Shown here piece after piece: positions 1,388-62,480 of a stretch of DNA of 64,000 nucleotides. This DNA is from Quercus robur (lineage: Eukaryota > Streptophyta > Magnoliopsida > Fagales > Fagaceae), in the NCBI RefSeq assembly GCF_932294415.1, contig NC_065543.1:44975777-45039776 (forward strand), read 5' to 3'. Position numbers and translations under genes: made by a program. The first letter of the stretch is position 1; each line of letters begins with the position of its first letter. The notes under the pieces were generated by a model, which was not told the origin of the DNA, ran no database searches, and saw only the letters and a program-made list of their open reading frames with translations.

Positions 1388-3780
1388 AAAAACTAAAAAT
1401 AAATGGGAATTCAATCATTCGATGCGAGAGAATCTTATCCAACACATTATCCGTATGCTTACAAGATCAAAAACGCGCTTGCCCCCATCAAAAAAAATAA
1501 AAATAAAAAACGCGCTTTGCCACTTGTACACTTGGTGGGTGGCCCATGATTTGCTAGCCAGTCGAGTGGTGTACAATAAAATGACTACAACTGATAGGAC
1601 CTAGATATGACCAATCAAGACCAGCCAAATGTCTAAAGTTTGGTTAGATTGTCGAAAGGTTTATTCTTACATAAGCAACTACATAAAATAGTTGTATTAC
1701 TTGTTTTGTCGGCGGTTTAATAGATCATTAGATTGAATTTTAAAAATAAATAAAGAGTTATAGGTTTACCTGATGTGATTTGGTTTGAATCAACGTCCCA
1801 AATTCAAATCCTTAAAAAATTGAAATTGATTTTCAAGACTTCCACTAGATGATCAACCCAAAAGGAGCTCCAACAATCCCTTATATAGGACCTTTATGTA
1901 TTTAAAGATCGGCTCTTTACTGAGTAGGTACTATTATGATCGTGTCCAAATATAATTTCTCACAAATTGGTCATCTCCTGCACTTTTTATTTTTTTAATT
2001 AACGAACAAAGGAAAATTTATAATTTACCACTTATGGTTTGGCCTTATCATAATAATTATAAGTGAAATATAAGTAACATTGCTAAGTATGTATAAACAT
2101 AAGTAAAGTACATATACGAAGCAATAAGAGAATTTGCAAAAATAGAAATTTTCAAAAAGAATGTCTAATCTCACATCTACGCACCCAAAAATATCTCTAA
2201 CTCTTAGATACCCAATTTAGTATTTTTTTTTTAATGAGTAACTACTAAGCTTCTTAAATTAAACTTAAAATAAATTTAGCTAGCCATAACTGAACATGCC
2301 CTAAGTCGACTAGGACCTTCCTTTCCATATAATAATTACTATTAAGTTTAGAGAATCAAGCTTCTAGATATATAATACCTTCTCAAAAATAAAGCTTAGA
2401 TATATAAAAACCTCAATTTAAGAGAGAGCCTCTTTAATTACTAATCAAAAATTTAATTAATCCATAATCCTTTGATTACCTCACCAAATTAAAAATTCAA
2501 ACATGCACTTCGAGTACCTTAATTTTATATAAGAACCCATACTTTGAGACTAAAGTATTCAGATCATCAAAACCCTCAAAATTGGACTAAGCCAAAAACT
2601 TAACGATTTCAATTTTGTGACTACACTTCAATCTATAATAATTTATCTCAACTAAAGTTATAAAACCCTAATTAGATGTTCCAAATTGCATGTTATTCCA
2701 CCAAATTTGATCAAAACATTACTAAATTGAAAAGTTTTTACTTAACGTAATAAATACTATAATATCAAAAGACCTACTTTTTCTAGATCACATTAATCAA
2801 GAGATAATCTGATATACTTTGGAGATTTAAACTTTAATTAGATCTTCTATTTTTTTTTTCCATTCTAAAGCATTCAATTTCATGGATCAAAGTCCATAAC
2901 ACACACACACACACACACAAAAACCCCTCAATTTGGTTATAAAACCCTAAACCTAAATTATAATTATTCCATATGCCCTTCATGTATAATTCTCTCACCA
3001 AGTTGAACATGTGGTCTTAATTACATGTTTTTATGATTAATTTTTGAAATTTATAATTGGAATATAAAATCCCCTAAATTAAGCCTAAAACCTAACCCTA
3101 ACATTAAAATTTCTCACATTCCTACCAAAATCATTATAATTAAGTAAGATCAAGATTAAATATTGAAAGAATAAGCTATATTACATCTTGAGCATGGTTC
3201 AAGACAATCTAAAAGCACAAAAACTCAAAATGTGTCGTGAACAAGCAAAAATATCAATATTTTTTTGGCAAGATTTGGATGGTTTTAGGCTACAACACAT
3301 TGTCCTAAGGTTGGGTTGCAACTAGCTATCTTGGGTAGAGGAGGCCCAAAACTCACTATTTGCCTCATATCTTGTTTTCAATGAGTTCTTTGCCATTTTT
3401 CAGTGATTCACTGTGATGATGAGACTTGGTTTGGTTTGGCTAGGGTTTCTAGAGTTTTAGGATGGTTTAGATAAGTGGCCATATATATCAATAGAGGTCA
3501 AAGACTTTCTTCAAATCGGTTTGGAAGAATCTCCTTTAATCTATTACGCGAATAATTCATAAAATCATTTATATGTATTATTTAAATTAGTCACATAACT
3601 CATTAATAAGTCATTTGACTAAAAGTATATGACAATGATTTTATTAATTACCATATAGTGGGTTGGAGCAATTTTCTTCCAAATTGGTTTAGAGGTAAAT
3701 TTTTTTCTTTTAAGTAAATAAAACTCTCTTCTTTTTTATTTACTTATTGTTTGTTTAATTATTTTATTGGCCATTACAAT

Positions 3781-3834
<54 letters not shown>

Positions 3835-4439
3835 CTTTTTACATTCTCCCCAAAATGCCTCATACCAAAGGACTGTTAATATTTGATGTAATATTTAGAA
3901 TTAGTTATTTAAATCCATGTCTTTTGCATCTTTATTAACATAAACATGTTCGATATACATAGAGGGCATTCCTACTATATTATTGAAATCATTTTAGGCA
4001 TATCTAATAAGAATATAAAAATGTTGTTCCATTATCTTAAGCTGTCAATAGAGTAGGTAATCAAGTAGCAAAATATAGAGTAGGTAATCCACCTTTTTAC
4101 CCTAATGTGGAGCTCGACATGTTCCACGAGTTTTTTTTTAGGGGGGTGGGGTTCCACGAGTATTTTTGAGACACTGAAATTGAAAACTAATTATAAAGTT
4201 ATTACAACCTTTCATTTTTATGATTATAGAATTAACTTTTAGACCCCATGATAAAGACAAAATGTGGCAACGTGTTACGTAAGGATATGCAAAGTTGACA
4301 CTTCCGCCTTAACAAACGCAATCCGCCGCTAAAACCGACCTCTGATATTTTATTTTTTATTTATTTTTTACGGAGACAACCGATAATTTTATGTTCATGA
4401 ATCATGCCTTCAAACCTTTCATTCTTTAATCTTTCTAAA
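1388..4439. other. Intergenic, AT-rich with microsatellites
   Basis: No gene recognised. It contains an (AC)n microsatellite at about 2899-2919 and a long (CT)n microsatellite at about 3786-3831. Short open frames here show no family resemblance. Confidence 0.5.
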
Positions 4440-5172
4440 TTGATCTATGACATATGCAATTGCTAGCATATTGGGTTCAAAAGTTAAAGGCTCAAACAAT
4501 AAATTTGTAGAGAATGGACTAAAAGACTAGGCCTTGGTTATCGGACAGTAGTTAGTCATGATGTTCAAGATGATCGTACATAGGTGAATTGTGTTTGCCC
4601 AAGAAGACTTTCTCCTCGGCACGGCCTGGGTGGCTCTGGTTCTTGGCCCTGGTCCTAGCCCCCTTTCTGGACTGCTTCCTTCTCCTTTTATACTAGCTTT
4701 TCCCCTCCCTTCAATGTCCACGTGTAGGTTCAGCTTTCTAGGGCTGATACTTGTCCTATCAGCCCATACCCAAAGTGGTTGGGGTGGTTGTAAAAGCTGA
4801 AAAACATGGCTCTATCAGGCGCAGAGTACTTAATTGCAGTAATGACAGTCTTTCCCTTGTCCTTTGTCGCCACATTGTTCAGTGGTCCTTTCTAGGACGT
4901 TTGTTGGCACATTCAATGCGGAGGTGTTAGTTTTTCCTTGAACCGCTCCTATACTGTATTCGCCCTTTCTTCTGAGAGCGCTTTGGAGACTACCTTTAAT
5001 GGCGTGCCGTTCCTTCCTTCTAGGTTTTGGGATGCTGAAGACAGGATCGTCCTTGGCTATATCTCTAGGCCATTTGGACTTTCGTTGCATGTTCTCGGCA
5101 ACGCCTCTCCTCGACGCGGGCCTTGGGCCCTAATGTAAAGTGGGCCGAGATCACAAATTCTCTAGCCCCACA
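4440..5172 (-). mobile_element. Solo-LTR-like remnant of an LTR retrotransposon
   Basis: On the minus strand this starts TGTGGGGCTAGAG and ends near 4440 after a segment (ACAAATTTATTG...) that is also found at the 3' end of the LTRs at 56.3 and 57.6 kb. GC content is higher than the flanks, and the short open frames across it are not genes. No internal coding region is adjacent, so it reads as a solo LTR fossil. The family (Gypsy or Copia) cannot be decided. The 4440 boundary is approximate. Confidence 0.55.
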
Positions 5173-5660
5173 GAAAACATATGACAGACTTTTTTTTTTT
5201 TGAGAAGAAAAACATATGATAAACCTAAGGGGTAAGTTTAATGATTCCTAAATATATATGAGATTCTGGGTTTGAAATCTTTAACTAGCATCTTAAAATC
5301 ACCTTCAACTCTAAGGAATTTTTCTATGAACAAAATTTCTCTCCAAATTCAAACTCTTCATATATTTTTATGTTGAGTGTGAATTTTGAATTTTTTTTTA
5401 ATCTAATTTTGAAAATCTAACCATTAGATTACATGTTCTTATTATATTTTTTATACTTGCAAAATTTCGAGAATATCAAAAATCAATTGCTATGTCACTA
5501 AACAAATGTTAAAATTTCAAATTTTTATGATTTAAAATTGTATATAAAAAATAAATTTATTGATCAAATAATAAATAATATCCGATTTGAACGAAATTTG
5601 ATATGCATATTAAAAATATAAAGAACATAAAATTCAATGATTAAAATTTTAATATATATA
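5173..5660. other. Intergenic, AT-rich
   Basis: Nothing recognised apart from short A/T runs and a small (TA)n stretch near 5651-5664. Confidence 0.5.
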
Positions 5661-5672
5661 TATATATTCTCT

Positions 5673-6335
5673 CTCACACACACCAACAACAAGATAATTC
5701 ATAAAAATACAAATAAAAATAAAATCAAAGTTTCTCTCAAATTCCTTTAGAGAGAAACTTAGATTTTATTTTTATTTTTATGAATTATCTTGTTGTTGGT
5801 GTGTGTGTTTTATTGTTATGAATTATCTTGTTGTTGGTGGGTGTGTGTGTATATATATACACACACACCAACAACAAGATAATTCATAAAAATAACACTA
5901 CACACACCAACAACAAGATAATTCATAACAATAAAACACACACACCAATAACAAGATAATTCATAAAAATAAAAATAAAATCTAAGTTTCTCTCAAATGA
6001 GAGAAGAAGACTGCAAAGTGCAAGAGGAATATGGACTAAAATCTATAAACAACGAACAAAAGAGAACGAATTTTGTCATTGATGTCATACTGACAATTCT
6101 GCAACGTGTATAAGCAGCAAGACTGAAACAATGTTGAGAGAAACTTTGATTTATTTATTTTTTTTTTTATGAATTATCTTGTTGTTGGTGTGTGTGAGAG
6201 AGAAGAAGACTGCAAAGTGCAAGAGGACTATGGACTAAAATCTATAAACAAGGAACAAAAGGGAACGAATTTAGTCAATGATGTGATACTGACAACAGTA
6301 CTGCAACGTGTATAAGCAGCAAGACTAAAACAATA
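5673..6335. repeat. Palindromic repeat cluster followed by a direct duplication
   Basis: A unit with the core ACCAACAACAAGATAATTC followed by AT-rich sequence occurs about seven times in both orientations between 5673 and 6200. The pair at 5675-5737 and 5750-5815 forms a near-perfect hairpin with a loop of about ten bases. A second palindrome centres on the (GT)n(AT)n(AC)n run near 5855. A segment starting AGAGAAGAAGACTGCAAAG then appears twice as direct copies (about 6001-6131 and 6198-6331), separated by another core unit. No protein is encoded. Confidence 0.75.
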
Positions 6336-18145: not shown

Positions 18146-18433
18146 ACCTGTTTGGTTTTGGCATTTACTGCGTTTCAGCGTTTGCGTTTTGGGCATAAGA
18201 CCCATGCTACAGTTGCACGCAGTAAACGCATCCTTCTTCTTCTTTTTTAGCTGTTAACGTTGACTTTTCCTGTAAATAGTGCACTCGTGTACTGTTTATG
18301 GGTCCCACAAACTTCACTTTTCAACAATTTTTTCATTAAAAATGGGTCTCATGGTATTATTCACACATTTAAAAATTATTTTGCTACAGTGTTTTCAGTT
18401 TCAGTAAAAAAAGCTCAATCCAAATAGACCCTA
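18146..18433 (-). mobile_element. MITE of the family also present at 36.35 kb
   Basis: The right end read on the minus strand (GGGTCTATTTGGATTGAG) and the internal segments CTGAAAACACTGTAGCAAAA and TTTTTAAATGTGTGAATA match the element at 36351-36646. The left end TACCTGTTTGG is weakly inverted to it. It is non-coding. hAT-like by terminus style, but the target duplication is not clear here. Confidence 0.6.
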
Positions 18434-30024: not shown

Positions 30025-32127
30025 TGACACTACAAAAAAGATTGCTATTTGCGACGAAACTTTTTTGACAACTACAAAAAGCCATCGTAAAAACTAGCTT
30101 TTTTGACGGCAAATCTCTTCCGTCGACAATTACTCGTCAAATATTAACATATTTGTGACGGCAAAATAAGTCTGTCAAAAATGCCTATTATTTTTGTCGA
30201 AAATGTGATTTTTTTCGGAGGGAAGTGTTCCCGCCTTACTTTTTACGACGGCATAAAAATGTTTGTCGCTAGTAAAGTATTATTTACGACGACTGAAAAA
30301 AAACCGTCGGAACTATTAACACTTGTGACGGCTTTGGTACGTCGAAAATACAAAACATATATTTTTTATGGTGTTAGTATTTGCGACAAACAATCTTCCA
30401 TCGTAAATATAAAAGATGGTATTATTTACAACGACAGAAGAAACACCATCGACACTATTAACACTTGTGACAGCCTTTGTGCATTGAAAATACAAAATAT
30501 ATATTTTTTATGGTGTTATTATTTACGACAAACATTATTCTATCGTGTAAAAAAAAAAAAAAAAAAAAAAAAGGTATTAACGACTGACATGAAGCCATTA
30601 AAAATGGTAAAATATTTTGGAGGGAAAATTCCCTCCTTACTTTTCACATTTGTGACAACATTTATCCATCGCAATTAATTTTTTTATTTTTCTAATTGAG
30701 TTTGTATTTACGACAAACATGCTGACCGTCGTAAATAGTTAATTTACTTTAAAAGAAAGAATGTGTAAGTAATGGAATTGGATCCCTCCCAATAAATAAT
30801 ATTTGCGATAGACCTACACCGTCGACATTGGTAATTTTTTTAAAAGGGGGAAATCATGCCCTTATTTTTCATGTGTTTGATGGTTTTTTCCATCACTATA
30901 TATTGCATTGTTATTTACGACGGATGTTGTGGTCATCGTTAATAGTTAAAATTTTCATAAGAAAAAAAGGTATTAATGACAGTAAGATAAATTTGTCACA
31001 ATAAAAGTGATTTCCAACATACATATGCCCGTAAAAAAATGATTATTTACTTTGAATGGTAAATTTTCCTCAATTTTGTCTTACAAACTCTAGAATTTTA
31101 TCTTAATTTTGAAAATAAAAAAAAAAAATTCTAAAAAGACCCACTAAGTACATGATGGCTATTTTGGTCATTTCAGAAGTAAAACGTAATTTGATCATTT
31201 TGAAGCTTTTAGGGGCACTTTCATCACTTTAGATGTTTATGGGTATTTTGGTAATTTCCTATATTTGATGGCGTATTTCAGCCATTTTGAATGGTCGGAT
31301 TGTGTCAACGGGTTAATCAAAGTTTCCTAGTGGGTGGGTACAACAACATGTATCCATCATGAAACCAGATGGAGATCCAAAATCTGGCCGTTGGATTAGT
31401 AGAATGTGGTGAAATATTTGTGTTTGTAAATTACAATGATAATCAGACGATCAGATTGTGAGAACAGAGTAGTCAAATCTTGCGAAACTTCGTCAAAGTC
31501 TATTAAACTTGGTCAATTTTGGTCAAAATTCAAAGTTGGTTCTGAGATCACTGGATTTGATCAAATTAGGTTGTTCAATGAGGTTTTAAGTGGGTTTTGG
31601 GTATTGATAAGAGTTTTAAGGTTTTCTTGGTTTTCATGTTTTTATTAGTTTCAAGTTTTAAAATGGCAAAGTCAAAAGTCATATGCAAATCCATTTGAGG
31701 TCATTTTGTAGGTTTTTGGTTGTATTTTGCAGATCATTTTCTTGATTATTAGTAATACTTATATAGTGTATAACTCTCTTAATTAGTATAGTATTAGATA
31801 TTTTTAGTGATTGAAGTTTCATTATAGGCGGATACGACACGCATCCATCTTGTGCAATAGTCGAATTTAAAATTTGACCATTGGATTGAAAAAGTATGAT
31901 AAAATAATGGTTTTGATAAATTTTGAGCTCAATCAAACAGTTGGATTAGGAGAACATGACCAATCAAAATTTTTGGTGTGCTAGTACAACAACACATGTC
32001 CATAATGCTCTAGACTCAAACCCAAAGATCGATCTTCCCACCACCACCATGCATTCTCACTCTCAAACCCTAGATTAGGCCTCTCTCTATTAGCACTCAC
32101 CGCCGCCGCTAGCCGATTGAAGCCCCC

Positions 32128-33712
32128 AATGATCAATATTTGAATATTAATTTCACTGAGTCTAGTGGTATTGGGACTATCTATTAATTTTGACTAGATT
32201 TGACTAATTTAAACTAAACTTTGACCGCACCTTTCTCTAAATCTGACTATTTGATTGTGACCATAATTTATCAAAATTAACTTTTCATTACACTCTTCAG
32301 ATCCAACGGTTAGATTTCAAATCTAAGTTTGGCGCGTGATAGACATGTGTTGTGTACTTGTATGGTTTTGTTTTCTCAATTGGACCATCCAATTGGTCTC
32401 AAATTTCACTAACACGAATATGTCACCGTACTCTTCAATCCCAATGATCAAGATTTGAATATGATTTTCACCAAGTCCAGTGGTCTCGAGACCATCTATT
32501 AAGTTTGACCGGATTTGACCAACTTTGACTAAACTTTAACCGCGGCTTTCTCTAAATCCAACTGTTTAATTGTGACCATAATTTACCAGAATTAACTTTT
32601 CATTACACTATTCAACTCCAACGGTTAGATTTTAAATCTAAGAATGGTACGTGATGAACATGTGTTGTGTACCTATATGGCTATATATATTCTCTCAATC
32701 TGACCATCCAATTGGTCTCAAATTTTACCAACACCAATATGTCATCATACTCTTCAATCCTAATGATCAAGATTTGAATATGAATTTCATCAAGCCCATT
32801 GGTATCGGGACCATCTATTAAGTTTGATCGGGTTTGACCAACTTTGACTAAACTTTGACCATGCATTTCTCTAAATCCAACCGTTTAATTGTGACCATAA
32901 TTTACCAAAATGAACCTTTCATTACACTCTTCAAATCCAACGGTTAGATTCCAAATCCAAGTATGGCATGTGATGGACATGTATTGTGTATCTATATGGC
33001 TATATATATTCTCTCAATCTGACCATCTAATTGGTCTCAAATTTCACCAACATCAATATGTCACCATACACTTCAATCCTAATGATCAAGATTTGAATAT
33101 GAATTTCACCAAATCCAGTGGTACCGAGACCATCTATTAAGTTTGATTGGGTTTGACCAACTTTGACTAAACTTTGACCACGCATTTCTTTAAATCCAAT
33201 CATTTGATTGTGACCATAACTTATTAAAATTAACCTTTCATTATACTCTTCAAATCTAATGGTTAGATTTCAAATCTAAATATGGTGCATGATGGACATA
33301 TGCTGTGTATTTGTATGGTTATGTTTACTCAATCTGACTATCCAATTGGTCTCAAATTTCATCAACACCAGTATGTTATCATACTCTTCAATACTATTGA
33401 TCAAGATTTGAATATGAATTTCACCAAGTCAAGTGGTCTCGGGACCATCTATTAAGTTTGATCGAGTTTGACCAACTTTGACTAAACTTTGACCTCGCCT
33501 TTCTCTAAATCCAACCGTTTAATTGTGACTATAATTTATCAGAATTAACCTTTCATTACACTCTTCAAATCCAACGGTTAGATTTCAAATTTAAGTATGG
33601 TGCGTGATGGACATGTGCTGTGTACTTGTATAGTTATGTTCTAAGTATGGTGCGTGATGGACATGTGCTGTGTACTTGTATAGTTATGTTCTCTCAATCT
33701 GACCATTCAATT
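32128..33712. repeat. Tandem array with a period of about 318 bp inside the CACTA element
   Basis: Units marked by CAATCTGACCATCCAATTGG start at about 32373, 32692, 33010 and 33326, with a partial copy before (from about 32128) and a truncated one after (33690). Each contains the TTTGACCAACTTTGACTAAA block, rich in TTGAC (the core of WRKY W-boxes). A 50-base piece is also doubled at 33591-33640 and 33641-33690. The related, more diverged sequence at about 31290-31600 suggests that the array once extended further left. Confidence 0.85.
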
Positions 33713-34325
33713 AGTCATATTATTTTTTTTAAAAAAAGTAAACGTAGTTAGTCACATATTAAAATTTATACATAAATTTAATAATAGCTATGATTTTAAA
33801 AAAAATTTATAAGATAGAACGTGTAATAATTTTTGTTGTGTGGTATTTTTTTTTTTTTTTTTTTTGAGAAAGTTGTGTAGTGATTTTTATTGAGTATATG
33901 TGATTATTATTTTTTATTTTTTAATTTTATTTCATAGCTCATTAATATTATATTCTTAATATTTTGAACTCATTAACTCACTTAAATATATAGATGTATT
34001 TGATTCATGTACAATTACAAAATGCACGACAAAATGGTAATTGCTAGTCAAAAATGGTAATTAATTATAATTGTCTTCTTTTATTTTTATTTTTTCCTCA
34101 AAATAAATCTGTCTTCCTTTATTTTTCCCACCCAAAATTTCCCAAAAATTTGTTTCCCTCCTAACGTGTTTCACTTAGCTCCCCCCACCCCTTCCCGCGC
34201 CGTAAAAAACCAAAATCTGACCTTTTACTTAGGTTTTTTTCCCCTAAAATTTGCTTTCCTCTCTCTAAGCTGTCACTCTTCTTCTCTTTTTCTCTCCATC
34301 CTCATTGGCCAACACGGCGGTGTAG

Positions 34326-35014
34326 TCACCGGGGCTCAAGACTTATTTCAAAACCCCAGAAGGACGTTATAAGCTACATTACGAGAAGACTCACCCTTCA
34401 GGTCTCCTTCATTATGCTCATGGCAAAACCATCACTCAGGTTCATTCTTCCAAACATTTCTGAAATTTCTATTTTTTACTTCTTCAAACCAATTTTTCTG
34501 TTTTGGGAGTTTTCTTGAATACCCATTTCGTGAAAATGGATGTTCTGTGAGTTTAAGGTTTTTTTTTTTCTTTCTTGTTGATAATGATTTCTAGGGTTTT
34601 AATTAATGATCAATACCTGTTTGTTAGAATTACCGTTTGAATATGGGTTTTGATTTATTTTGATTAATAGTTTTCCATGATTATATTTGGTTAATGTTGA
34701 TATATTTGGATATAATTTTGATACCCAATTTTCAAAATTAAGGTTTTTAGGACTATTTTATTTCAAATTTATTAACGTGTATTTCTGGAAGGTGTTTGGT
34801 TGATTCTCACGTTCTGGGATTTTCTAAAAAGTCCATGGGTCATTGGGGTCTTCGATTAAGATTAATATATAGTAGTAATAATAGGATTGGGTCATTGGGG
34901 TCTTTGAGTTCTAGTAATTCAATGGGTAATTCAAACTTCGATGGTAAAGGTTCTTATTTGGTCTTCAATGTTGGAGATGCTATCTTTATAAGCGATATGA
35001 ATTCTCAAGACAAG
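34326..35014 (+). pseudogene. Captured exons of a WDR20-like WD-repeat protein gene
   Basis: Two blocks read as host exons. Block 1 (about 34326-34439) encodes SPGLKTYFKTPEGRYKL then HYEKTHPSGLLHYAHGKTIT, ending CAG before a GT. Block 2 (about 34796-35014) contains NNRIGSLGSLSSSNSMGN, NFDGKGSYLVFNVGDAIFI and SDMNSQDK, ending AAG before GTAGTT. From memory these match the N-terminal part of plant WD-repeat proteins related to animal WDR20 and fungal creC, including the exon end at NSQDK. The downstream WD repeats are absent, and a stop lies in frame just before block 1, so no working protein is expected. Keeping an intron shows capture of genomic DNA, not a processed copy. It lies wholly inside the CACTA element. 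Confidence 0.8.
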
Positions 35015-35266
35015 GTAGTTTGGTATTTTAGTTAGTTGAGTGGTCAAACAATGAAATTTGAAATTTATGTTAGTTAGTTCAGTCTTTTTTTTTTTTGTTA
35101 CAATTTCTTGGCAACCAAATGGTGTTGAATTCTATCAGGAAATTTGTTCAAATATTGCTTGGTTGCTGAGAAAATTGCACACAAGTGACAGGAAAGTGAA
35201 ATTTGAAGTCTTACACTATTGCTATGAACATAGAGCCTTATTCATCACTTGTATTTTACATTCCAG

Positions 35267-35351
35267 TTGCTGCAATAGAGAATGGTGTGTTTACTTCTCT
35301 AGAGATGGCAAAGTCATTTGATTTCACTTCGGAGGAGCGAATATACAATTG
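35267..35351 (+). pseudogene. Captured exon of a valyl-tRNA synthetase gene
   Basis: This 85-base block sits between a splice acceptor (TTCCAG) and a donor (GTATTTT) and reads VAAIENGVFTSLEMAK then SFDFTSEERIYNW. From memory it matches the N-terminal region of plant organelle-type valine-tRNA ligase just before the ...WWESQGYFKP segment, a class I synthetase family. Only this exon is present. With no HIGH or KMSKS motifs it cannot function. It is a second, independent host gene capture beside the WD-repeat exons in the same transposon. Confidence 0.68.
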
Positions 35352-36350
35352 GTATTTTATTTTGTGATAGAACTATTGCTAATATATGCGCTTAAATTGA
35401 TTTTTATTTTATTTTATTCTGTAGCTATTAACTTCCAAGTGAATAGGTGATTCATTTTGCTTATTCTCTTTATTTCTCTTCTGATGTATATATTTTAAAT
35501 TGTTATATTTGTTTCTTCACTTTGGGTGATGAATAGATATTTTGTTTATGTTAAGTTAAAATCTTACTACAATGGTCAGTATGACATATTTCATAATGAC
35601 TACAACTTTGTTTTATTATTGTTATTAGTTAAGCTACTACTGGAAACCAATTGCATTCTATATTACCATAGTTCCATTTGGTTTCATGTTTGGTAATACT
35701 GTGTGTGGAGCCTGATATATTCCATAATGGCGATATAATTTTCATAAGCCTGTTATATATGGATGTATGCATTCACACAGCACAACCTATTTTGTTCCTG
35801 GAGAAACTCAAAATTGATCTAGAAGCCTGTGAATCTAACATGGCTATAACACTCCATAACAGTAGTATACATAAGATGGATACTATAGCTATTAATCTAG
35901 TGCTGTCTAATAGCTTTATAGTTGATGGGTATATATCATTTGTGTATTTTTCTCTCTCACCCCTTATAAATGCATAGGTGCTTTTTTATGGGAAAGGCCT
36001 CCTGTTTATTGCATATCCTTTCATCATATCCTTTCTCTTTCTGCCTATTTTTTATGTTTAAAATTTTAAATAATTTTAAAATTACTTAAAGTTGGGTTCT
36101 CTTATAAACATAAAGTCTATTGTTTGTTATGTATTTATTTATTTATTGGAAAGTTCATGAATTGGCCACACACAAATATTGGTTGTTTGTGGATTGGCCA
36201 TATGGTTTCCTCGAGATACTTTCACCAACTTGCCTTGTAGTTAATAAAATGAGTGGCGGGCACAAAGGGTGTTATCCTGAGAAATATTTTTATTTTAATA
36301 TTATTAAAAATTTTAAAAACATAAAGAGTTGCTTTTTGTTTTTTACTAAG
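35352..36350. other. CACTA interior, unidentified
   Basis: AT-rich sequence between the valyl-tRNA synthetase exon and the MITE. A frame of about 99 codons crosses 35678-35977 but shows no family resemblance. It may contain intron sequence brought in with the captured exons. Confidence 0.35.
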
Positions 36351-36558
36351 GGTCCGTTTGGATACAGTTTATTGTTGCTGAAACTGAAAATTGTTGCTGA
36401 AAACACTGTAGCAAAATAATTTTTAAATGTGTAAATAGTACCGTGGGACCCATTTTTAATATTTTTTTATATGTGAACAGTAAAAGCACAGTACGTGAAC
36501 AGTACATTTACTGTTCATAATAGTGAAATTTGTCTCCCAAAGTCAACAAAAGCGGGCC

Positions 36559-36594
<36 letters not shown>

Positions 36595-36646
36595 CGCGAA
36601 CTGGGAAAACGCAGACGCAGCGAACGCGGAGCCCAAACGCTCACTA
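36351..36646 (+). mobile_element. MITE nested inside the CACTA element
   Basis: It begins GGTCCGTTTGGATACAG and ends GGAGCCCAAACGCTC, imperfectly inverted. The body shares CTGAAAACACTGTAGCAAAA and other blocks with the copy at 18146-18433. An A-run of about 30 lies inside at 36557-36587. The flanks ACTAAG and ACTAAAAG may be a decayed 8-base duplication of hAT type. Confidence 0.6.
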
Positions 36647-36886
36647 AAAGTGCTTTTATATTGTAATTTGGGTTTGGACATATGTACATTAAAAGTTCTT
36701 CTGATTTTTCAATTGATTCACTATATGTATTCTTTGATGTTGATAATTCCATTGTTATTCATTGTAGGGATTGTTGTTGATGTTAAATTAATACGTTTTA
36801 ATATCTTTATTATGTATTGTAAATATAATTTGCATAGTAATAATTTTTTTTTGTATACTTATTCAGTTTAATCAAAATATTACAGA

Positions 36887-37000
36887 CCAATGTTGGAGAA
36901 GGAAATCAAAATGTGGACGAAGACACAAAAGATGACTCTGAGGAGGAAGATGACTTAGATGGCTCTCAAAAGGAGAATACTAACTCAAATGATGATTGAT
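36887..37000 (+). pseudogene. Acidic terminal-exon-like segment inside the CACTA element
   Basis: After an acceptor-like TTACAG the plus strand reads TNVGEGNQNVDEDTKDDSEE and then EDDLDGSQKENTNSNDD before a TGA. It looks like a real C-terminal exon by composition and splice signal. I cannot say whether it belongs to an old transposon gene or to a third captured host gene. Confidence 0.4.
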
Positions 37001-37429
37001 CTTCCAATATTTATGTTTTCAAGTTTGGTGAAGGATATTATAGCTTTCATGTAGATGTTTTAATTAATATTTTTTATTCTATTTTATAGACATTTTAATA
37101 TTTTTTTTATTGCATTATGCACTTTCTAGATTTGGACAATTATGGATTTGTGCTTGTTATTTGAATTGAAAAACTTTTGGGAGATTTATGTTTCCTCGCA
37201 ATTAAAATATTAGAAATGATCTCTTTTATTATTGACAGAATTATTTTGTTGCAAATAATGTGTTACTGACGTGGTGAATAGGTTTCAATAATGGTCAAAG
37301 TTCATTGAAAAAGGTAAATGGTCACATTGATAATGTATTGTTGACGAAAAACCCATTATTTTACGATGGCTTTTAGTCGTTGAAAAACTACATTAACGAC
37401 AACTATAGTTCATCACAAAAGTTATTTTC

Positions 37430-37910
37430 GACGACAAACCAAGTACTTATGACAGTTTTTATTCATCAAAACAAGGGCATTAACAACGACTTTAGTTTGT
37501 TGTAGAAAGTATTTGGTCATTTGACTTTCTTGTATGAAGTTACATTGTCGACGACAAACCAAGTAATTACGACGGCTTTTATTCGTCAAAAAAAGGTATT
37601 AACAACGGCCTTAGTTTGTCGTAGAAAGTATTTGGTCGTTTGACTTCCTCGTATGAAGTTACATTGTCGACGACAAACCAAGTAATTACAACGGCTTTTA
37701 TTTGTCAAAAAAAGGTATTAACGACGGCCTAAGTTCAACGTAGAAAGTATTTGGTCATACGACTTCCTCATATAAAGTTGTATTGTCGATGACAAATGAA
37801 ATAACTACGACGGTACTTTGTCGTCGAAACTATGCATTAACGACGGCCGAAGGTCGTCACAAAAGGTATTTGGTCGTCCAACTTCCTCGTATGAAGTTGA
37901 ATCTATAACG
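37430..37910. repeat. Subterminal repeats of about 120 bp in the right arm of the CACTA element
   Basis: A unit containing GTAGAAAGTATTTGGTC, ATGAAGTTACATTGTCGACG and ACGGCTTTTATTCGTC repeats about four times with a period of roughly 118-122 bases. Shorter CGACGG-type motifs continue to the terminus. Such subterminal arrays are the usual binding region for the CACTA accessory protein. Confidence 0.75.
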
Positions 37911-38115
37911 GCAATTATCAAGTACTTACGACGGAGTTGTGCTGTCGAAAATGAGTGTTAGCAACGGTCTCGTCGGTAATATAGTATTACCGACAAGGCT
38001 TTTTCCGACGGCCGTCGACGGCCTTTTACCGTCGGCAATACTAATTTGCGACAGCTTTTTGTGTTGTTTCGACGAACTTTGGCCATCGCTAATAGCAATC
38101 TTTTTTGTAGTGTGA

Positions 38116-39495
38116 CATGTTTGAGTTTGACTCTTCTAACATTTAACTAGTCCCCAAGAATGATGAGATTAGTGAACTCCGAATTACAATTCATGTAATC
38201 AAAAAAACAATAGGCCTTATTTTAAAGATAAAAAACTGTCTTTACAAATCTCAAAAAGGAAATAGGAGATAAAAATTAGAACTAAAAGAAAATCATTCAA
38301 AAGGAGGTAATCAATTAAGATCATGCTATAAATTGCGCACCACCCCCCACCCCCCCTAAAAAAAAAAAAAAAAAAAAGGTAATCCTTGATCTCTTGGCAA
38401 TGCATGTTCTGAGAATTTTTTGTGTTTAATGTACATCTAAGTTATAACTATTCTCTCAACAACAACAACAAAAAGTTCTAACTAAAGGCCTATAATTTTT
38501 TTTAATTAAAAAAAATCTAACTAAAGAATGTTATGTTTAGCTGGATGGAAAATGAAAAAAAAAAGGACAGGAGATAAGAGAACGCGGAGGAAACAGCAAT
38601 TGTTTTGTGGTAAGAAAAGAGAGAACAACCATTTTTTTCACAAGCATAGCTAATTCAGTTTTGTGGGGAAGAAACATATCCACTATCCTTCTTTTTTAAG
38701 TGAGGCAGTTTTGTGAGAATCTAGCTACATGTTTGGATCACTTTTATAAAATTTGTTTTGAGTCAAACACTTTGTTAAATTTAAACAAACATTTGGTAAT
38801 TAATTAATCAAAACAGTTTTTATATGCGAGCGGCACCATTTATACAAAATTAACAATGCAAAATTCGGACCAAAAGAGAAGCTAATTGACAATGCAAAAT
38901 TATAGGTCATATAAATCTTCCAACCCACTTTTTTCTGTTTTACTTTATATTCAACCGATTATTACTTATCATGTGGTTGATTTTTTTTTTTTTTTTTTCC
39001 ATTTTAAACTTTAATTATCTTATATAAGAAAAAAATTAAATAAATACACAGTAAGTTGTGATTGGTGAAATACAAATTTTGAGATAAAAAATTTATATTT
39101 GAATGATCTCGCTGGTTCAACGCATTCCCCGCTCGATAACCTTTCCCCTTCCAAACCTCAAAAACCAACCTTCCATACAAAAACAAAGCCATGCAAAAAT
39201 AGCATGCACAAGAAAAACACAAACAGAAACAAAAAAATTCCTCTCTTTTTCTCTCATTAATATAGCAATATAACAAACCTCCCCCCCTAAAACCTCTCTC
39301 ATCCACAATACTCTTTACCTTTTTCCCAACTCTCCTTTTCCCCCAAACCCATAGATCTGCTTTCTCTTTCCTCCCAATTCCCTCCTGTGGAGGTTGCTTC
39401 ATAGAGGAAAAACCTAGAGGAAGTAGGTCTCAACTCTCAATCCCTACCACCCTTCCTCTCATTCTTTCATTCATTCATTCTTTCTTTCTTTCACC
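38116..39495. other. Intergenic and peroxidase promoter region
   Basis: AT-rich, with A/T runs near 38350 and 38982. The final 100 bases are pyrimidine-rich with CATT and CTTT repeats, typical of a 5' UTR before the peroxidase start. Open frames on the other strand (39004-39402) look like chance. Confidence 0.5.
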
Positions 39496-40491
39496 ATGGC
39501 TTTCCCTTTCCCATTCCCTTTCCCTTTACTTTTCCTTCTCTTCCTTTCCATTCCCTTCTCAGAATCCAAGCTCTCCGTCGACTACTACACAAAAACATGC
39601 CCTGATTTTGACTCCATCATGCGTGAAACTGTCACCAGCAAACAGATCAATAGCCCTACAACCGCCGCAGGCACTTTACGTCTTTTTTTCCATGACTGCA
39701 TGGTTGATGGCTGCGATGCCTCGGTCCTCATCTCCACAAACCCCTTCAACAAAGCCGAGCGTGACGCTGATATCAACCTCTCTCTCCCCGGCGACGCCTT
39801 TGATCTGGTTGTTCGTGCCAAGACCGCCCTCGAGCTCTCTTGCCCCGGCATTGTTTCCTGCGCTGATATCTTGGCTCAGGCTACGCGTGATCTTATCACC
39901 ATGGTGGGTGGCCCTTTCTACAAAATACGTTTGGGACGTAAAGATGGCTTTGAATCAAAAGCTGAACTTGTTAACGGACAAGTTCCGCAACCAAACATGT
40001 CCGTGAACCAATTGATCAAAGTTTTCGCTGCTAAAGGGTTTAGCGCACAAGAAATGGTTGCGCTAACAGGTGCACATACCATTGGATTTTCTCATTGCAA
40101 GGAATTCAGTCACAGAATCTACAATTACAGCAACACCTCCCCATCTGACCCGGAAATGTATCCTAAGTACGCTGAGGCATTGAGAAAAACTTGTTCAAAC
40201 TACCTTAAAGACCCTGGAATGTCTGCTTTCAATGATATAATGACACCAAGCAAGTTTGATAACATGTACTATCAGAATCTTCAGAGGGGATTGGGGCTCT
40301 TGGCCACCGATCATGCACTCAGTAAGCACCCTAGAACCAAGCCATTCGTAGACTTGTACGCTTCAAACCAGACTAAGTTCTTCGAGGATTTTTCACACGC
40401 AATGGAAAAGCTTAGTGTTTTTGGTATCAAGACTGGCCGGAAAGGAGAGGTGAGGCACAAGTGTGACGCTTTCAACACTCTCAAGGCATAG
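39496..40491 (+). CDS. Class III secretory peroxidase (Prx41/65-like)
   Basis: A plant class III haem peroxidase. It uses hydrogen peroxide to oxidise phenolic substrates in the cell wall or vacuole and takes part in lignification and defence. The intronless frame of 331 residues starts at an ATG in good context (CACCATGGC). Residues 1-24 (MAFPFPFPFPLLFLLFLS...) are a signal peptide. The distal site RLFFHDC has Arg62 and His66, and the proximal haem ligand is His194 in LTGAHTIGFSHC. All eight structural cysteines are present at 35, 68, 73, 116, 122, 201, 233 and 323. DILAQATRDLITMVGGP is the conserved central helix. NMS, NYS and NQT are potential glycosylation sites. The sequence recalls Arabidopsis peroxidases 41 and 65, which also lack introns; that is from memory. 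It appears intact. The next gene, at 42.4 kb, is convergent. Confidence 0.96.
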   Translation: MAFPFPFPFPLLFLLFLSIPFSESKLSVDYYTKTCPDFDSIMRETVTSKQINSPTTAAGTLRLFFHDCMVDGCDASVLISTNPFNKAERDADINLSLPGDAFDLVVRAKTALELSCPGIVSCADILAQATRDLITMVGGPFYKIRLGRKDGFESKAELVNGQVPQPNMSVNQLIKVFAAKGFSAQEMVALTGAHTIGFSHCKEFSHRIYNYSNTSPSDPEMYPKYAEALRKTCSNYLKDPGMSAFNDIMTPSKFDNMYYQNLQRGLGLLATDHALSKHPRTKPFVDLYASNQTKFFEDFSHAMEKLSVFGIKTGRKGEVRHKCDAFNTLKA

Positions 40492-51624: not shown

Positions 51625-53229
51625 TCAAAAGGTTGTAGAGTTAGCACCATACAAGTTTTTCCCGGCAACTCGGTACCGACTCCGACTAATTCCACCGGAG
51701 TTCAGAATCCCTTCCCAATCCTCTCCTTCTTCACCTCCATCCTCCTCTTCTCTTCCCTTCATCATTCTCAAAATCCGCTTCGCCTTTTCCCTCGCCCTAT
51801 CGCTTCCTTTCTCTTCCACTTCCCTCAATGCCTCAACAGCTCTTGCTTCCTTTGCCAATCCCTTGAATCTCATACTCCCTTGGCTCAGGGCATACAACGC
51901 GGCCACGCAGTTCTCGCGCGTGGCCTCAGACTCTGCTCCTTCGCCATTCCTAAGCATTCCCACCAAACACTCCACCGCATTGGCATCCAGCATAGCTGAC
52001 CTCCCTTCCACGGATACAGCCAAGTTGCATAGAATCAACAGCACGCGACTCGCTGACTCGCCGGTTTTAGCCATTGCTAAAAGACTCGGTACGGCTCCGA
52101 GTTTCACCAGCTTGACTCGGTTGCTTTGAATAAGAGTCAGGTGGTACAGTGCCAGTGCCGAGTCGTGCCGAGTTCGCTCGCTTTCTGATCTCAGCGCGTG
52201 CATCAATGGCGGCAGAGCTCCTAACACTCCGATTGCCATTTTGTTGTCGTCCTCCAACGCTAAGCTGAAGAGAGCGCCGGCGGCGTGTTCCTGCGACTCG
52301 CTGAATCCTCCTTTCAACGCGTCGATTAAGAGCGGAACGAATCCTGACCGCACGATCTGCACCTTGTTGCGCTTTTCCAGAGAGAGGTTCACCAACAAAG
52401 CGATGGCGTTGACTTGTACGGCGGCGTATTTGGATTGAATCAACAATCGGACGGCGGAGAGTAGCCGAGGAGTACAGAGCGAAACCCTAAGGTCTTCTCT
52501 GGTCCTCGTGAGCTTTCTCAACGAAACCACAGCTTCTTCTTGCTCATACACCTCCGCGCTTTTCAACTTCGCGATGAACTGGTCCTCTTCGGGAGTGGAA
52601 GAGTTAGGGCCTATGGTTAGGCTTAGAATTTCGTTGGCGACGATTTCGGAAGAGGAAGATGAGGAAGAGTAGCACAAAGGCCGAGTCGCGAGTGGTAGAG
52701 GAGTACCTGGACTCCCCGCCGCGATAACAACCGACTCGTCGGAGGAGCTCGAGTGGAAGTGATTGACTCGGTGACCTAACTCAGTCGCCGCGTGCGACAG
52801 AATCAACGGCGGATTCTCCGCTACGCCTCTCAGAAGCTCCCGCTCCGAAATCCTAATCTCCGGACCGGAATTCCTCTCCTCCGCCTCCATTTCCGACCGG
52901 ACCATCCGCTCCACGGAGCTGTAATCCGGTGCGGACGGGTGCACCGTACCGTTGCTCTCGCACCACTTGAGGATCGTGGACTTGAACGCCTTGTTCGGAA
53001 TCTCGGTCGTGAAATCGGGTATCGACCCGTCTTCGAGCCTCGGGGAATAACCGAGGTCGCGGCAGACGCGTACGGACACGCGCTCGAACGTTTGACCCGA
53101 AGAGACCACAACCGGGTCGGACATTAAGGACCCGGAAATTGGGCAGATGAAATCCTTAGGGGTCTGTTTGGGACTGGAGTTAGAGCGGTGAAATGAAATT
53201 CTCCACCTGTGTTTTCCGTTTCCGCCCAT
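51625..53229 (-). CDS. U-box and ARM-repeat E3 ubiquitin ligase (PUB38-41 type)
   Basis: A plant U-box (PUB-ARM) E3 ligase. The U-box recruits a ubiquitin-loaded E2 and the ARM repeats bind the substrate. The intronless frame of 534 residues starts at ATG 53229. The U-box begins at residue 26 (DFICPISGSLMSDPVVVSSG, then QTFER) and runs to about residue 95, including TEIPNKAFKSTILKWC. A serine-rich linker covers about 150-200 (HSSSSDESV and a run of seven Ser). Armadillo repeats fill about 215-490 (NAIALLVNLSLEKRNKVQIV, AAGALFSLALEDDNKMAIG, ALYHLT). An acidic segment (REEEDGGEEGEDWEG) precedes the C terminus. The layout matches Arabidopsis PUB38 to PUB41, from memory. The coding region is much richer in GC than its surroundings. 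A long (GA)n tract lies about 180 bases upstream. Intact. Substrates are unknown. Confidence 0.94.
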   Translation of the reverse strand: MGGNGKHRWRISFHRSNSSPKQTPKDFICPISGSLMSDPVVVSSGQTFERVSVRVCRDLGYSPRLEDGSIPDFTTEIPNKAFKSTILKWCESNGTVHPSAPDYSSVERMVRSEMEAEERNSGPEIRISERELLRGVAENPPLILSHAATELGHRVNHFHSSSSDESVVIAAGSPGTPLPLATRPLCYSSSSSSSEIVANEILSLTIGPNSSTPEEDQFIAKLKSAEVYEQEEAVVSLRKLTRTREDLRVSLCTPRLLSAVRLLIQSKYAAVQVNAIALLVNLSLEKRNKVQIVRSGFVPLLIDALKGGFSESQEHAAGALFSLALEDDNKMAIGVLGALPPLMHALRSESERTRHDSALALYHLTLIQSNRVKLVKLGAVPSLLAMAKTGESASRVLLILCNLAVSVEGRSAMLDANAVECLVGMLRNGEGAESEATRENCVAALYALSQGSMRFKGLAKEARAVEALREVEEKGSDRAREKAKRILRMMKGREEEDGGEEGEDWEGILNSGGISRSRYRVAGKNLYGANSTTF

Positions 53230-53410
53230 TTGGGGTTTTGGGGTTATCTCTCTCTCTTTCTATATTTCTATCTTACTTTTCTCTCTCTCTCTGTGAAGTT
53301 AATGAGTGATGAGAGATTCTTCAATTTATTATTCTCGCTCTGAATGAGAAAAGTATTATTTATGGGGTCAAAAGACTCAAAAATATAGGGGCATTCTAAT
53401 TGGGCTTTTG

Positions 53411-59600: not shown

Positions 59601-62480
59601 TTTTTTTTTTTTTGATACCATAAAAGGAAGATACAAAGTTATCAGTTTACAAAAGAAGTTGAATTAGCCCAATTGTTATGTATTGGCATTCTAATTGCCA
59701 TAGCTACAACATTATAAACAAAATCAAGTACAATCCTAGGAACCTCTAACAGCTTACAAACTAGTCCATCCATGTACAAAACATCCAGGTCAGCAATGAG
59801 AGACCTCTCATGCCTAGCTGGTTTCTTGGACTTACTAACAAGTTGAATTAGGTCCTTACTGTTGGTTAAAATAGGATCCGTTTAAAGCCATGATTCTTGA
59901 CTGTGAAGACAGCTTCCAACAGAGCCTCCTGCACAGCTCCTTTAATTGTACTAGCGTTGCTGCTATAAACACCATAGAATTTGATAACTCCTTGCTGATC
60001 TTAAGCTTCAAAAGCCCAAGCACTCCTATTAAGCCTCGGGTTTCTAGTCCCTACATTTTAATTAGGAGTTGCCACTGTCCAGTGACATTGCTAGGTTCAT
60101 TACTTAGCCTGCTTCTTGTAATAAAGGGACTGGTTGGCTTGAGAAGACCTCTTTGTACCTGCAAGACAAAGTTTGTGCTGTTAGGATTACTTTCATGGGG
60201 TTGGGCTATTTACCTTCATGTACCATCGTGTTCCTATGGAGCCAAATGGTCCACACAATGTGGTAAAGATGGACTGCATATATTCAAAAGAACCTTCTTC
60301 ATTCCAATAAAGAGCATTATTCAGATTAATTAACCATTGCTGAACAAATATGTCACTAAAATTAGAAGTATGAACAGCCAAAGATGAACCATGCCAACAA
60401 GCTCTAGCAAAAGGGCACAATAAAAACAAATGAGAAGTTGATTCGATCCTCCTTATAGTTGCACATTGGACATAGCTCATCATCAGATATACCCCTAATT
60501 TTTAAAAGCTGCAAAGTTGGAAGACAATCATGTAATAATATCCAAATAAAGGTCCAAATTTTCTGTGGAAGCTTTATCTTCCAAATCAATGCCCAAATTT
60601 TACTTTCAACCAGATTCACCCTATGACTATCAATAGAAGAAGCCAAGCAATCCTTAAGGAGAAGCCTATATGCTGTTTTGACCTCAAAGTCCCCACTCTT
60701 TAAGTGCTTCCACAATAATTTGTCACCTCCAACATTAGTTTTTGGCAAGGGAATTTTCATAATCTCCTCACAGATAGGAAAAGGGTAATAGGTTTGCACT
60801 AAATCTGCATTCCATGAGTAATTCTCTTGATTAATAAGGTCAGTTACAGAACGGTCAGTTATGAAGGGAATGTTCAACATATTATGTTTACACCTAAACC
60901 ACTCATTATCTCTTAAAGGAATGTCTAAACCCTTATTCACCCACCATCTACCTTCCTTAAGCTTAGGATTATCAGATTTAATGATGTTCCTCCAAACCCA
61001 AGATTGATGCAGTTTAGGAGAGCAAGTATGGATGGATCCCCTAGGATAGTACTTTGCCTTGAAGGTTCTTGCAATTAAGGAATTAGGATTATGGCATAAT
61101 CTCCAATATTGTTTAGCCAGCATAGCCTGATTTAAAAGACTAAATCTTCTTAGACCTAAACCCCCCGAAGACTTAGGACAACATATCTTACTCCATTTAA
61201 GAGAATGTAGTTTCTTAACCCCAGGTGCATGACCCCACCAGAATGCCCTAACTATAGAATCCATCCTCCTACATATTGTTTCAGGAACCTTAAAACAAGA
61301 GAAGGTATAGAGGGGGAGGGTTTGAAGTACATAGTTTATTAAAGTTGTTCCCCCAGCTTGAGATAACAGATTTGCTTTCCATCCTTCAAGCTTGGATTGA
61401 AGCTTGGCTACAAGGAATTGGAAGTCAGCCACTCTATTCCCCCTAAGCTTAAAATTAATACCAAGATACTTGCTAGGATATTGAACCAAATTAACATGAA
61501 GTTGTTTGGCCAAATCTTCTTGTTCAGATAGAGGCATGTTAGGAGATCAATAAAGGTCAGATTTTCTAAAATTAATGTCCTGCCCAGAAATCTTACAGTA
61601 CCAATCCAAAATTTTCTTTAAGTTTGTTATTAATTTATTGTCTTTTTTGAAGAAAAACAAAGAGTCATCATCAAACAACAAATGTGTAAAAGTACAGCCA
61701 CTCCTACCAACTTTAACTCCATTGATTAGCTTGTCATGTTCAGCTTTTTGTGAAGACAATGACAAAACATTAGCACACACGAGAAAGAGATAAGGAGAAA
61801 GAGGATAATCCTGTCTCAACCCCTTACAAGGCTTGAAGGATTTAGACCTACTGCCATTAACAAGGAGAGTGTATTGTACTGAAGTCACACATTCCATCAT
61901 CCAATATCCATTGTTAACTAAAGTTCATGGCAGTCAGAATAGCCCTAAGGAAATTCCAACTTACCCTATCATAAGCCTTTTTCATATCAATTTTTAAGGC
62001 TTCAAAGCTACCTTTTCTACCCTTTTTCTTCCTAAGAATGTCCATGATTTCATGAGCAATAAGAATATTGTCAAAAATACTCCTACCTTTTAGAAATGCA
62101 TTTTGAAAGGGAGAAATAAGACTGTCCATGAAAGGCTTTAATCTGTTAACAAGGATTTTGAAGATGGTCTTGTATATCACATTGCAAAGACTAATAGGTC
62201 TAAAGTGTGATACTTCGTCAGGAAAGGGAGTTTTGGGGATAAGGGTGAGGAAAGTGTGATTAAGGGGCTTAAAAAGGGACCCTGAATGAAAAAACGCTTG
62301 AATGGTGTTGACAACATCAGTTTTGACAACCTCTCAATACTGTTGATAAAAGAAAGCATGTATTCCATCAAGACTAGGAGCTTTGTGAGGCCCTAATTGG
62401 AAAATAGTGTCCTTAATCTCCCATGAAGTGACTAATCTACTCATATCCAAGCACTGCTAGTGGGATAGTTTAGGAATATC
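59601..62480 (-). mobile_element. L1-type LINE, 5'-truncated, with RT, zf-RVT and RNase H remains
   Basis: In minus-strand order: EIKDTIFQLGPHKAPSLDGI (about 62420, start of the RT region), FQNAFLKGRSIFDNILIAHE, FEALKIDMKKAYDRVSWNFL (catalytic Asp block) and GLRQDYPLSPYLFLV. Next is THLLFDDDSLFF, where the usual FADD reads FDDD. A 377-codon frame (60404-61537) follows, with SKYLGINFKLRG, the LSQAGGTTLI linker and FWWGHAPGVKK, and ends in the zinc-binding domain ELCPMCNYKED. Weak RNase H-like sequence follows to about 59800, and the tail is a run of A (T on plus) at 59600-59613. The endonuclease domain is absent and stops or frame changes occur near 61540, 61910 and 60480, so it is inactive. 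The canonical GLRQGDPLSP is also altered. Confidence 0.88.

Follow-up and report, generated by a model that had tools for sequence, protein, structure and literature searches.

An intact CACTA element and its family

We analysed a 64,000-nucleotide stretch of Quercus robur DNA (contig NC_065543.1, here C39; hereafter the window), which contains, at positions 30028-38112, an 8085-bp element that is almost certainly a CACTA transposon with transduplicated pieces of host genes. The pieces derive from a WDR20-like gene, a valyl-tRNA synthetase (ValRS) gene and a third locus, all found elsewhere in the same genome. The features belonging to the transposon itself are the following (family denotes the related elements described below).

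30025..30027, no strand: target-site duplication TGA, left (flanks read)
30028..30047, + strand: left 20-bp terminal inverted repeat (pattern search)
30028..30767, + strand: left subterminal arm, 91%, 84% and 90% identical to relatives L111, L112 and L139
32128..33640, + strand: tandem array of a 319-bp unit (4.8 copies) belonging to the family 5' arm (repeat search, family loci)
33641..34312, + strand: family-specific 5' leader, overlapping captured piece 1 at the joint (family loci compared)
36726..38112, + strand: family 3' arm (genome matches)
36872..36999, + strand: exon-like stretch, putatively the last part of a gene belonging to the transposon, closed by TGA (L112 has a similar frame)
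37424..37898, + strand: right subterminal 119-bp repeats, 4.0 copies, CGACG-rich (repeat search)
38093..38112, - strand: right 20-bp terminal inverted repeat (pattern search)
38113..38115, no strand: target-site duplication TGA, right (flanks read)

The two terminal repeats are exact copies of CACTACAAAAAAGATTGCTA. With up to three mismatches allowed, this sequence occurs twice in the window, both times at an element end (0.04 occurrences expected), and none of 100 shuffles gave two matches; a chance origin of the CACTA-like ends was rejected on these match statistics. Across the 785.7 Mb of the genome of the window, which is the scope of all genome searches reported here, we found 37 exact places (21 forward, 16 reverse) and none for the reversed pattern, and a 20-bp end of this type had no exact match in viral_contigs. 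Of the CGACG pentamers in the window, 4 fall in the leftmost 1.0 kb of the element and 11 in its rightmost 0.9 kb; the 6.2 kb between has none, and the 55.9 kb outside the element has 6. Besides the arrays listed above, there is a 142-bp one (1.9 copies), and the 142-bp and 119-bp arrays lie one at each end of the element. CACTA-type inverted ends, a 3-bp target duplication and subterminal repeat arrays, the hallmarks of CACTA (EnSpm) elements, are thus all present. As for a transposase, three interior peptides compared with Pfam gave nothing above the cut-offs, and the sole stop-to-stop frame of at least 120 amino acids (30148-30678) falls within the left subterminal repeats. The initial annotation had described an intact CACTA element with matching ends, a TGA duplication, CGACG-type subterminal repeats and no transposase, and all of this was borne out.

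Entire relatives with exact ends were found at L111 (7.48 kb) and L112 (8.76 kb), both on contig C4, which have window stretches 30028-30767 and 36871-38112 in common with the element; L111 is flanked by GTG on both sides and L112 by no matching 3 bp. The exon-like frame at 36872-36999 has a counterpart in L112, where it is interrupted by one stop. A genome search with 36660-37240 gave 59 candidate matches, 40 of which were scored; 19 of these 40 start at most 2 bp from 36726, and because of this clustering we took 36726 as the beginning of the family 3' arm. On the 5' side, 15 of the 16 loci L093-L108 retrieved with 34100-35040 match the family 5' arm, the other (L107) being a WDR20-like paralogue, and the 319-bp array was matched in 14 (all except L095 and L107), counting the best four matches per locus. 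The leader at 33641-34312 possibly serves the transposon's own gene as promoter and 5' untranslated region. At C5:12025450-12043086 lies a relative some 17.6 kb long, whose left arm is 90% identical and ends exactly and whose right arm is 93% identical; it contains the domains PF02992 (Transposase_21/tnp2; E 3.9e-85) and PF13963 (Transpos_assoc; E 6.3e-19), along with a DUF4218 match under the cut-off (E 6.5e-4). The tnp2 domain that characterizes CACTA transposons is found in this family in a composite C5 relative with 90-93% identical arms, and was not found in the element itself. Among family reading frames other than tnp2, two fragments (from L112 and L138) compared with Pfam reached no cut-off.

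Captured host pieces and their donors

The interior of the element holds three captured pieces and one nested insertion.

34302..35039, + strand: captured piece 1, WDR20-like; donor C35:4061744-4062735, 91-92% identity
34302..34439, + strand: WDR20-like exon 1 without start codon, with an in-frame TAG at 34323-34325 (donor alignment)
34440..34835, + strand: donor intron 1 (donor alignment)
34836..34855, + strand: 20-nt templated filler, identical to L109 3585-3604
34856..35014 (about), + strand: 3' remnant of WDR20-like exon 2, then the donor GT splice site (donor alignment)
35086..36089, + strand: captured piece 2, valyl-tRNA synthetase; donor C35:29565900-29566970
35267..35351, + strand: ValRS exon, reading AAIENGVFTSLEMAKSFDFTSEERIYNW in the window and AATENGVFTSPEMAKSFDFTSEERIYNW in the donor (boundaries from splice consensus)
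36137..36350, + strand: captured piece 3; source C35:4535214-4535484 (- strand), 82% identity
36351..36641, no strand: nested insertion resembling a miniature inverted-repeat transposable element (MITE; a provisional name), flanked by ACTAA

The donor of piece 1, identified by the genome search with 34100-35040 (locus L109), is 91.1% identical over 550 bp and 92.5% identical over 186 bp. Read exon after exon, it codes for a WDR20-like protein, the remaining exons being present too, and its joined exons contain WD40 (E 6.4e-16). Other parts of the element have no match of at least 60 bp in the 9.9 kb read at this locus, where the CACTA arms are likewise unmatched. Piece 1 starts within exon 1 of the donor and ends 25 bp into its intron 2, with one internal skip: intron 1 runs to L109 3291 and is followed by the filler, which comes from deeper in exon 2, and then by donor sequence from about 3555 to 3735, leaving 263 donor bp (L109 3292-3554: the end of intron 1, the acceptor and the 5' half of exon 2) with no counterpart in the element. 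Of a complete coding gene with WD repeats, the element hence holds no more than part of exon 1 and what remains of exon 2.

Independent support came from a tblastn search of the window with the WDR20 N-terminus (a query identical at 110 of 110 letters to PDB 6jlq/5k19), in which the exon 1 and exon 2 blocks were the two best matches and were collinear (E 0.05 and 0.41); their scores were attained by 0 and 1 of 1000 peptide shuffles, respectively. The captured peptides themselves gave chance matches (haemoglobin, E 1.2; an electron transfer protein, E 1.1) or none with phmmer against PDB, matches far under the cut-offs in Pfam and NCBIfam, and no paper containing the queried peptide strings in the full-text literature. 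These null results are explained by the shortness of the pieces and by the databases searched, which did not include plant proteomes; the identity of the captured exons is settled by the donor genes found in the same genome.

Piece 2 matches its donor at 88.8% over 1072 bp and comprises a ValRS intron, one exon and part of the next intron. At the donor locus the exon reading AATENGVFTSPEMAKSFDFTSEERIYNW is followed downstream by WESQGYFRPNFDRG...PPPNVTGSLHMGHAM, and PF00133 (class I synthetase domain) is found with E 3.5e-25. This exon and this domain identify the donor as a valyl-tRNA synthetase gene, presumably of the organellar type. With a profile of bacterial ValRS N-termini, built on the best 80 of 591 bacterial loci found with a plant ValRS query, the frame at 35200-35364 came out top among the 2041 frames of the window, with E 0.12 against 2.0 for the runner-up. 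With Thermus ValRS as the only query, the window exon did not stand out from shuffled sequence, 230 of 1000 shuffles attaining its score. The genome also contains a 1.47-kb partial ValRS duplicate on C3 (L125, G000:C3:22321001-22331000, positions 4914-6330), 92% identical to L123 5871-7300, next exon included. Over the 563 bp that they share, the Kimura two-parameter distance (K2P) to the window is 0.053 for the C3 duplicate and 0.057 for the C35 gene; it is the C35 gene only that covers the entire piece.

No gene was recognised at the source of piece 3 (C35:4535214-4535484). Of the nested 291-bp MITE-like insertion, 64 bp recur at window 18335-18398 with 94% identity.

The initial annotation had read two N-terminal WD-repeat exons with an intron between them. 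The WDR20-like origin and exon 1 stand, as shown by the alignment to the same-species donor gene that it had called for. Its second block (34796-35014) is partly not exon, with 34796-34835 belonging to donor intron 1, 34836-34855 being the filler and 34856-35014 exon 2. Two related readings were rejected: that exon 2 starts at 34793 with a small deletion, since the donor alignment shows intron 1 there, and that a host gene has decayed in place, since the donor gene stands elsewhere. Neither of the outcomes it had named as fatal to its reading occurred: the peptides do match a WDR20-like gene, and the full gene lies at C35:4.06 Mb and not in this place without CACTA ends. It had overlooked the ValRS piece, the third piece, the insertion at 36351-36641 and the part of the 3' arm that would belong to the transposon's own gene. 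Its transduplication reading is supported, yet was incomplete: the mosaic draws on three or more donor places, four in its ancestral form, and exists in a second copy on C4.

The second copy and the timing of capture

This second copy of the mosaic lies in locus L110 (C4:20144501-20154300), from C4:20149859 onward, and matches window 33055-36350 at 93% (gaps counted) and 36642-38112 at 97%. It is truncated on the left and lacks the left end; a further 10 kb in that direction contain no element match of at least 60 bp. Entry joint, internal skip, filler and WDR-ValRS joint are common to both copies, as is an 84-bp stretch at 36642-36725. The C4 copy alone also holds a fourth piece, 226 bp from a cyclophilin gene (C41:36070417-36070641; 94.2% identity), whose joined exons contain PF00160 (E 1.8e-13). 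In the window this stretch is absent and its position is occupied by the nested insertion. The flanks of the C4 copy do not match those of the window (4.4-4.5 kb compared on each side), and the possibility that it is a segmental duplicate was rejected on this ground. With a copy in unrelated flanks, the mosaic evidently transposed as a unit after capture, as is expected of a Pack-CACTA element. Adjoining the truncated left edge of the copy, L110 ~4000-4150 reads like the C-terminal part of a glutathione transferase, putatively of the tau class.

K2P values place the capture in time. Between the window and C4 copies they are 0.019 (10/531) for WDR exon 1 plus intron, 0.007 (1/136) for the WDR exon-2 remnant, 0.0215 (21/991) for ValRS, 0.020 (4/205) for piece 3, 0.021 (27/1303) for 35040-36345, ValRS piece included, and 0.029 (41/1467) for the 3' part. 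Between the window and the donors they are 0.065 (33/530) for WDR exon 1 plus intron, 0.015 (2/136) for the exon-2 remnant, 0.053 (51/1003) for ValRS and 0.097 (19/208) for piece 3, and between the C4 copy and the cyclophilin donor 0.0555 (12/225). Because both copies have the same donor joints and differ more from the donors than from each other, the capture is older than their split. Three of the four pieces appear to be of similar age, piece 3 being more diverged over few sites.

Route of capture and fate of the captured exons

The element is non-autonomous, contains host-gene DNA and has its donors elsewhere (C35 and C41), which places it among Pack-CACTA elements. As an explanation of the whole, a Pack-CACTA element whose interior was probably rebuilt by template-switching synthesis is quite likely. 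An element belonging to a CACTA family of many copies would have been broken internally, and repair synthesis would have switched templates at short shared sequences and so rebuilt the interior, copying in turn the WDR20-like gene, the ValRS gene, another stretch and (ancestrally) the cyclophilin gene before rejoining the 3' arm of the transposon. The mosaic would next have been mobilized by transposase supplied in trans, leading to the copies on C39 and C4. In this scheme we infer the break and its repair, the succession of templates and the supply of transposase in trans.

At the entry joint, the sequence of family locus L093 (TCACCGGCCAACAC) and that of the WDR20-like donor (TCATCGGCCAACAC) agree at 13 of 14 bases; none of 500 donor shuffles gave a 14-base run with one mismatch at this joint, the longest being 13. 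The donor places (C35 at 4.06, 29.57 and 4.54 Mb; C41 at 36.07 Mb) are not neighbours, and none of the eight genome matches of 35030-36345 lies in a family locus. Joints deep inside the element, with no family sequence found between non-neighbouring pieces, are as expected if a gap was filled with switches of template. In a study of animal Pack-TIR elements, shared sequence at one or more breakpoints was found in 190 cases (67.6%) and breakpoints were skewed towards the interior (PMC8277862).

The rival scenario is that of local hopping, published for Pack-CACTA and other Pack-TYPE elements, in which two nearby related CACTA insertions lose their inner ends and are mobilised along with the intervening DNA (PMC8903248). 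Fusion is documented in the present family: three members, L138 (8372-8376; C5), L140 (1242-1246; C38:5.6247 Mb) and L141 (1476-1480; C4:52.558 Mb), have an inner joint 37150/30742 at which the 3' arm directly abuts the left arm, which looks like the outcome of a fusion between adjacent insertions that was copied afterwards, with no captured gene at the joint. This joint weighs against template switching, as do several other observations: the tnp2-bearing C5 relative is itself composite, with a right end that is not the exact 20-bp repeat; the 13/14 run occurs in one of the four family loci compared (L093, the best), the other three sharing less; a pre-capture version of the element was not found in the genome; and piece 3, at only 82% identity, may differ in age from the others, or its true donor may be a closer sequence. 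The location of three of the four donors on the single contig C35 also speaks for local hopping, although it is a weak hint, perhaps of an ancestor that resided there, and is compatible with both models. On the other hand, the captured DNA is not contiguous, and we found its pieces separated by no family arm. The 5' joint, with its 13/14-base run, is 4.27 kb into the element, and a templated filler sits inside piece 1. Local hopping would require several rounds with all inner arms erased. The donor joints are a better fit to template switching than to fusion of neighbouring insertions. Given the fused composites of the same family, we keep fusion as a live rival, unlikely in this case, and consider template switching no more than the probable route of capture. 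The entry run, the templated filler and the similar donor divergence of three of the four pieces suggest, more tentatively, that Pack-CACTA elements could gain several unlinked host sequences in one template-switching episode, rather than by local-hopping fusion, a proposal that has about as much against it as for it.

The start codon of the WDR20-like gene was not captured, a TAG stands directly ahead of the frame with the WD repeats, the acceptor of exon 2 has been lost, and the predicted splice joining WD exon 2 with the exon of ValRS reads LLQ-stop; the C4 copy carries a separate, independent stop in WDR exon 1. The TAG, the lost acceptor and the frame-breaking splice make the exons unable to encode the donor proteins. 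They are best seen as decaying passengers; a protein function of the captured block is unlikely, and the window copy very probably makes no protein. A functional chimeric gene, driven by the transposon 5' leader and kept by selection, would account for the leader immediately 5' of exon 1 and for the sense orientation of all three genic pieces, and captured pieces of the soybean element Tgm-Express1 can enter spliced transcripts (PMC1947982). We regard it as highly improbable in view of the coding defects just described and of the fact that introns and exons were carried along alike. The pieces might also be sources of small RNAs acting on the WDR20-like and ValRS donors, which would be compatible with capture by template switching. 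Such a role has been reported for other gene-capturing elements (review PMC13317346), and the exon-2 remnant is very close to its donor, with 2 differences in 136 sites. Large inverted repeats of the pieces are not listed within the element, and we judge such a role doubtful. As a more general matter, chimeric transcripts or small RNAs from the captured pieces are possible.

Elements of this kind, CACTA transposons with several host gene fragments, are well known (PMC1947982, PMC8903248). The initial annotation supposed that the element was undescribed, which can hold for the individual element only, the kind being well described; our searches of the literature on CACTA gene capture and transduplication, largely outside subscription papers, met no title or abstract opening on it. 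Tgm-Express1 (five host gene fragments; PMC1947982) is likewise a CACTA element of several kb with intron and exon pieces of unrelated genes. The present one differs in plant and donors, apparently does not lie within an intron of a host gene, and has its donors, second copy and joints all readable in one genome. Pack-CACTA and other Pack-TYPE elements (PMC8903248) are also non-autonomous, retain their ends and carry host coding DNA, in maize often from more than one locus, whereas the joints described here suggest template switching and not mobilised neighbours. Internal breakpoints, short shared sequence at joints and later transposed copies are found in animal Pack-TIR elements too (explained by gap filling or FoSTeST; PMC8277862); ours belongs to the plant CACTA superfamily and used several successive donors. 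One genome offers the donors, the joints, the sister copy, the composites formed by fusion and a relative with transposase, which allows rival mechanisms of capture to be weighed from sequence, and the element is a readable example of host-exon shuffling by plant transposons, itself a well-known phenomenon. For annotation, the WDR20-like and ValRS exon matches in this region should not be taken for genes.

Elsewhere in the window, a peroxidase gene (39427-40488, + strand; PF00141, E 1.4e-78), which we assume to be of class III, has a reading frame that starts about 1.3 kb past the right end of the element, and the latter is thus in its upstream region. Further downstream are a long reading frame for a U-box/ARM protein (51625-53256, - strand) and reverse transcriptase pieces (RVT_1, zf-RVT; 60404-62330, - strand) that look like those of a long interspersed nuclear element (LINE).

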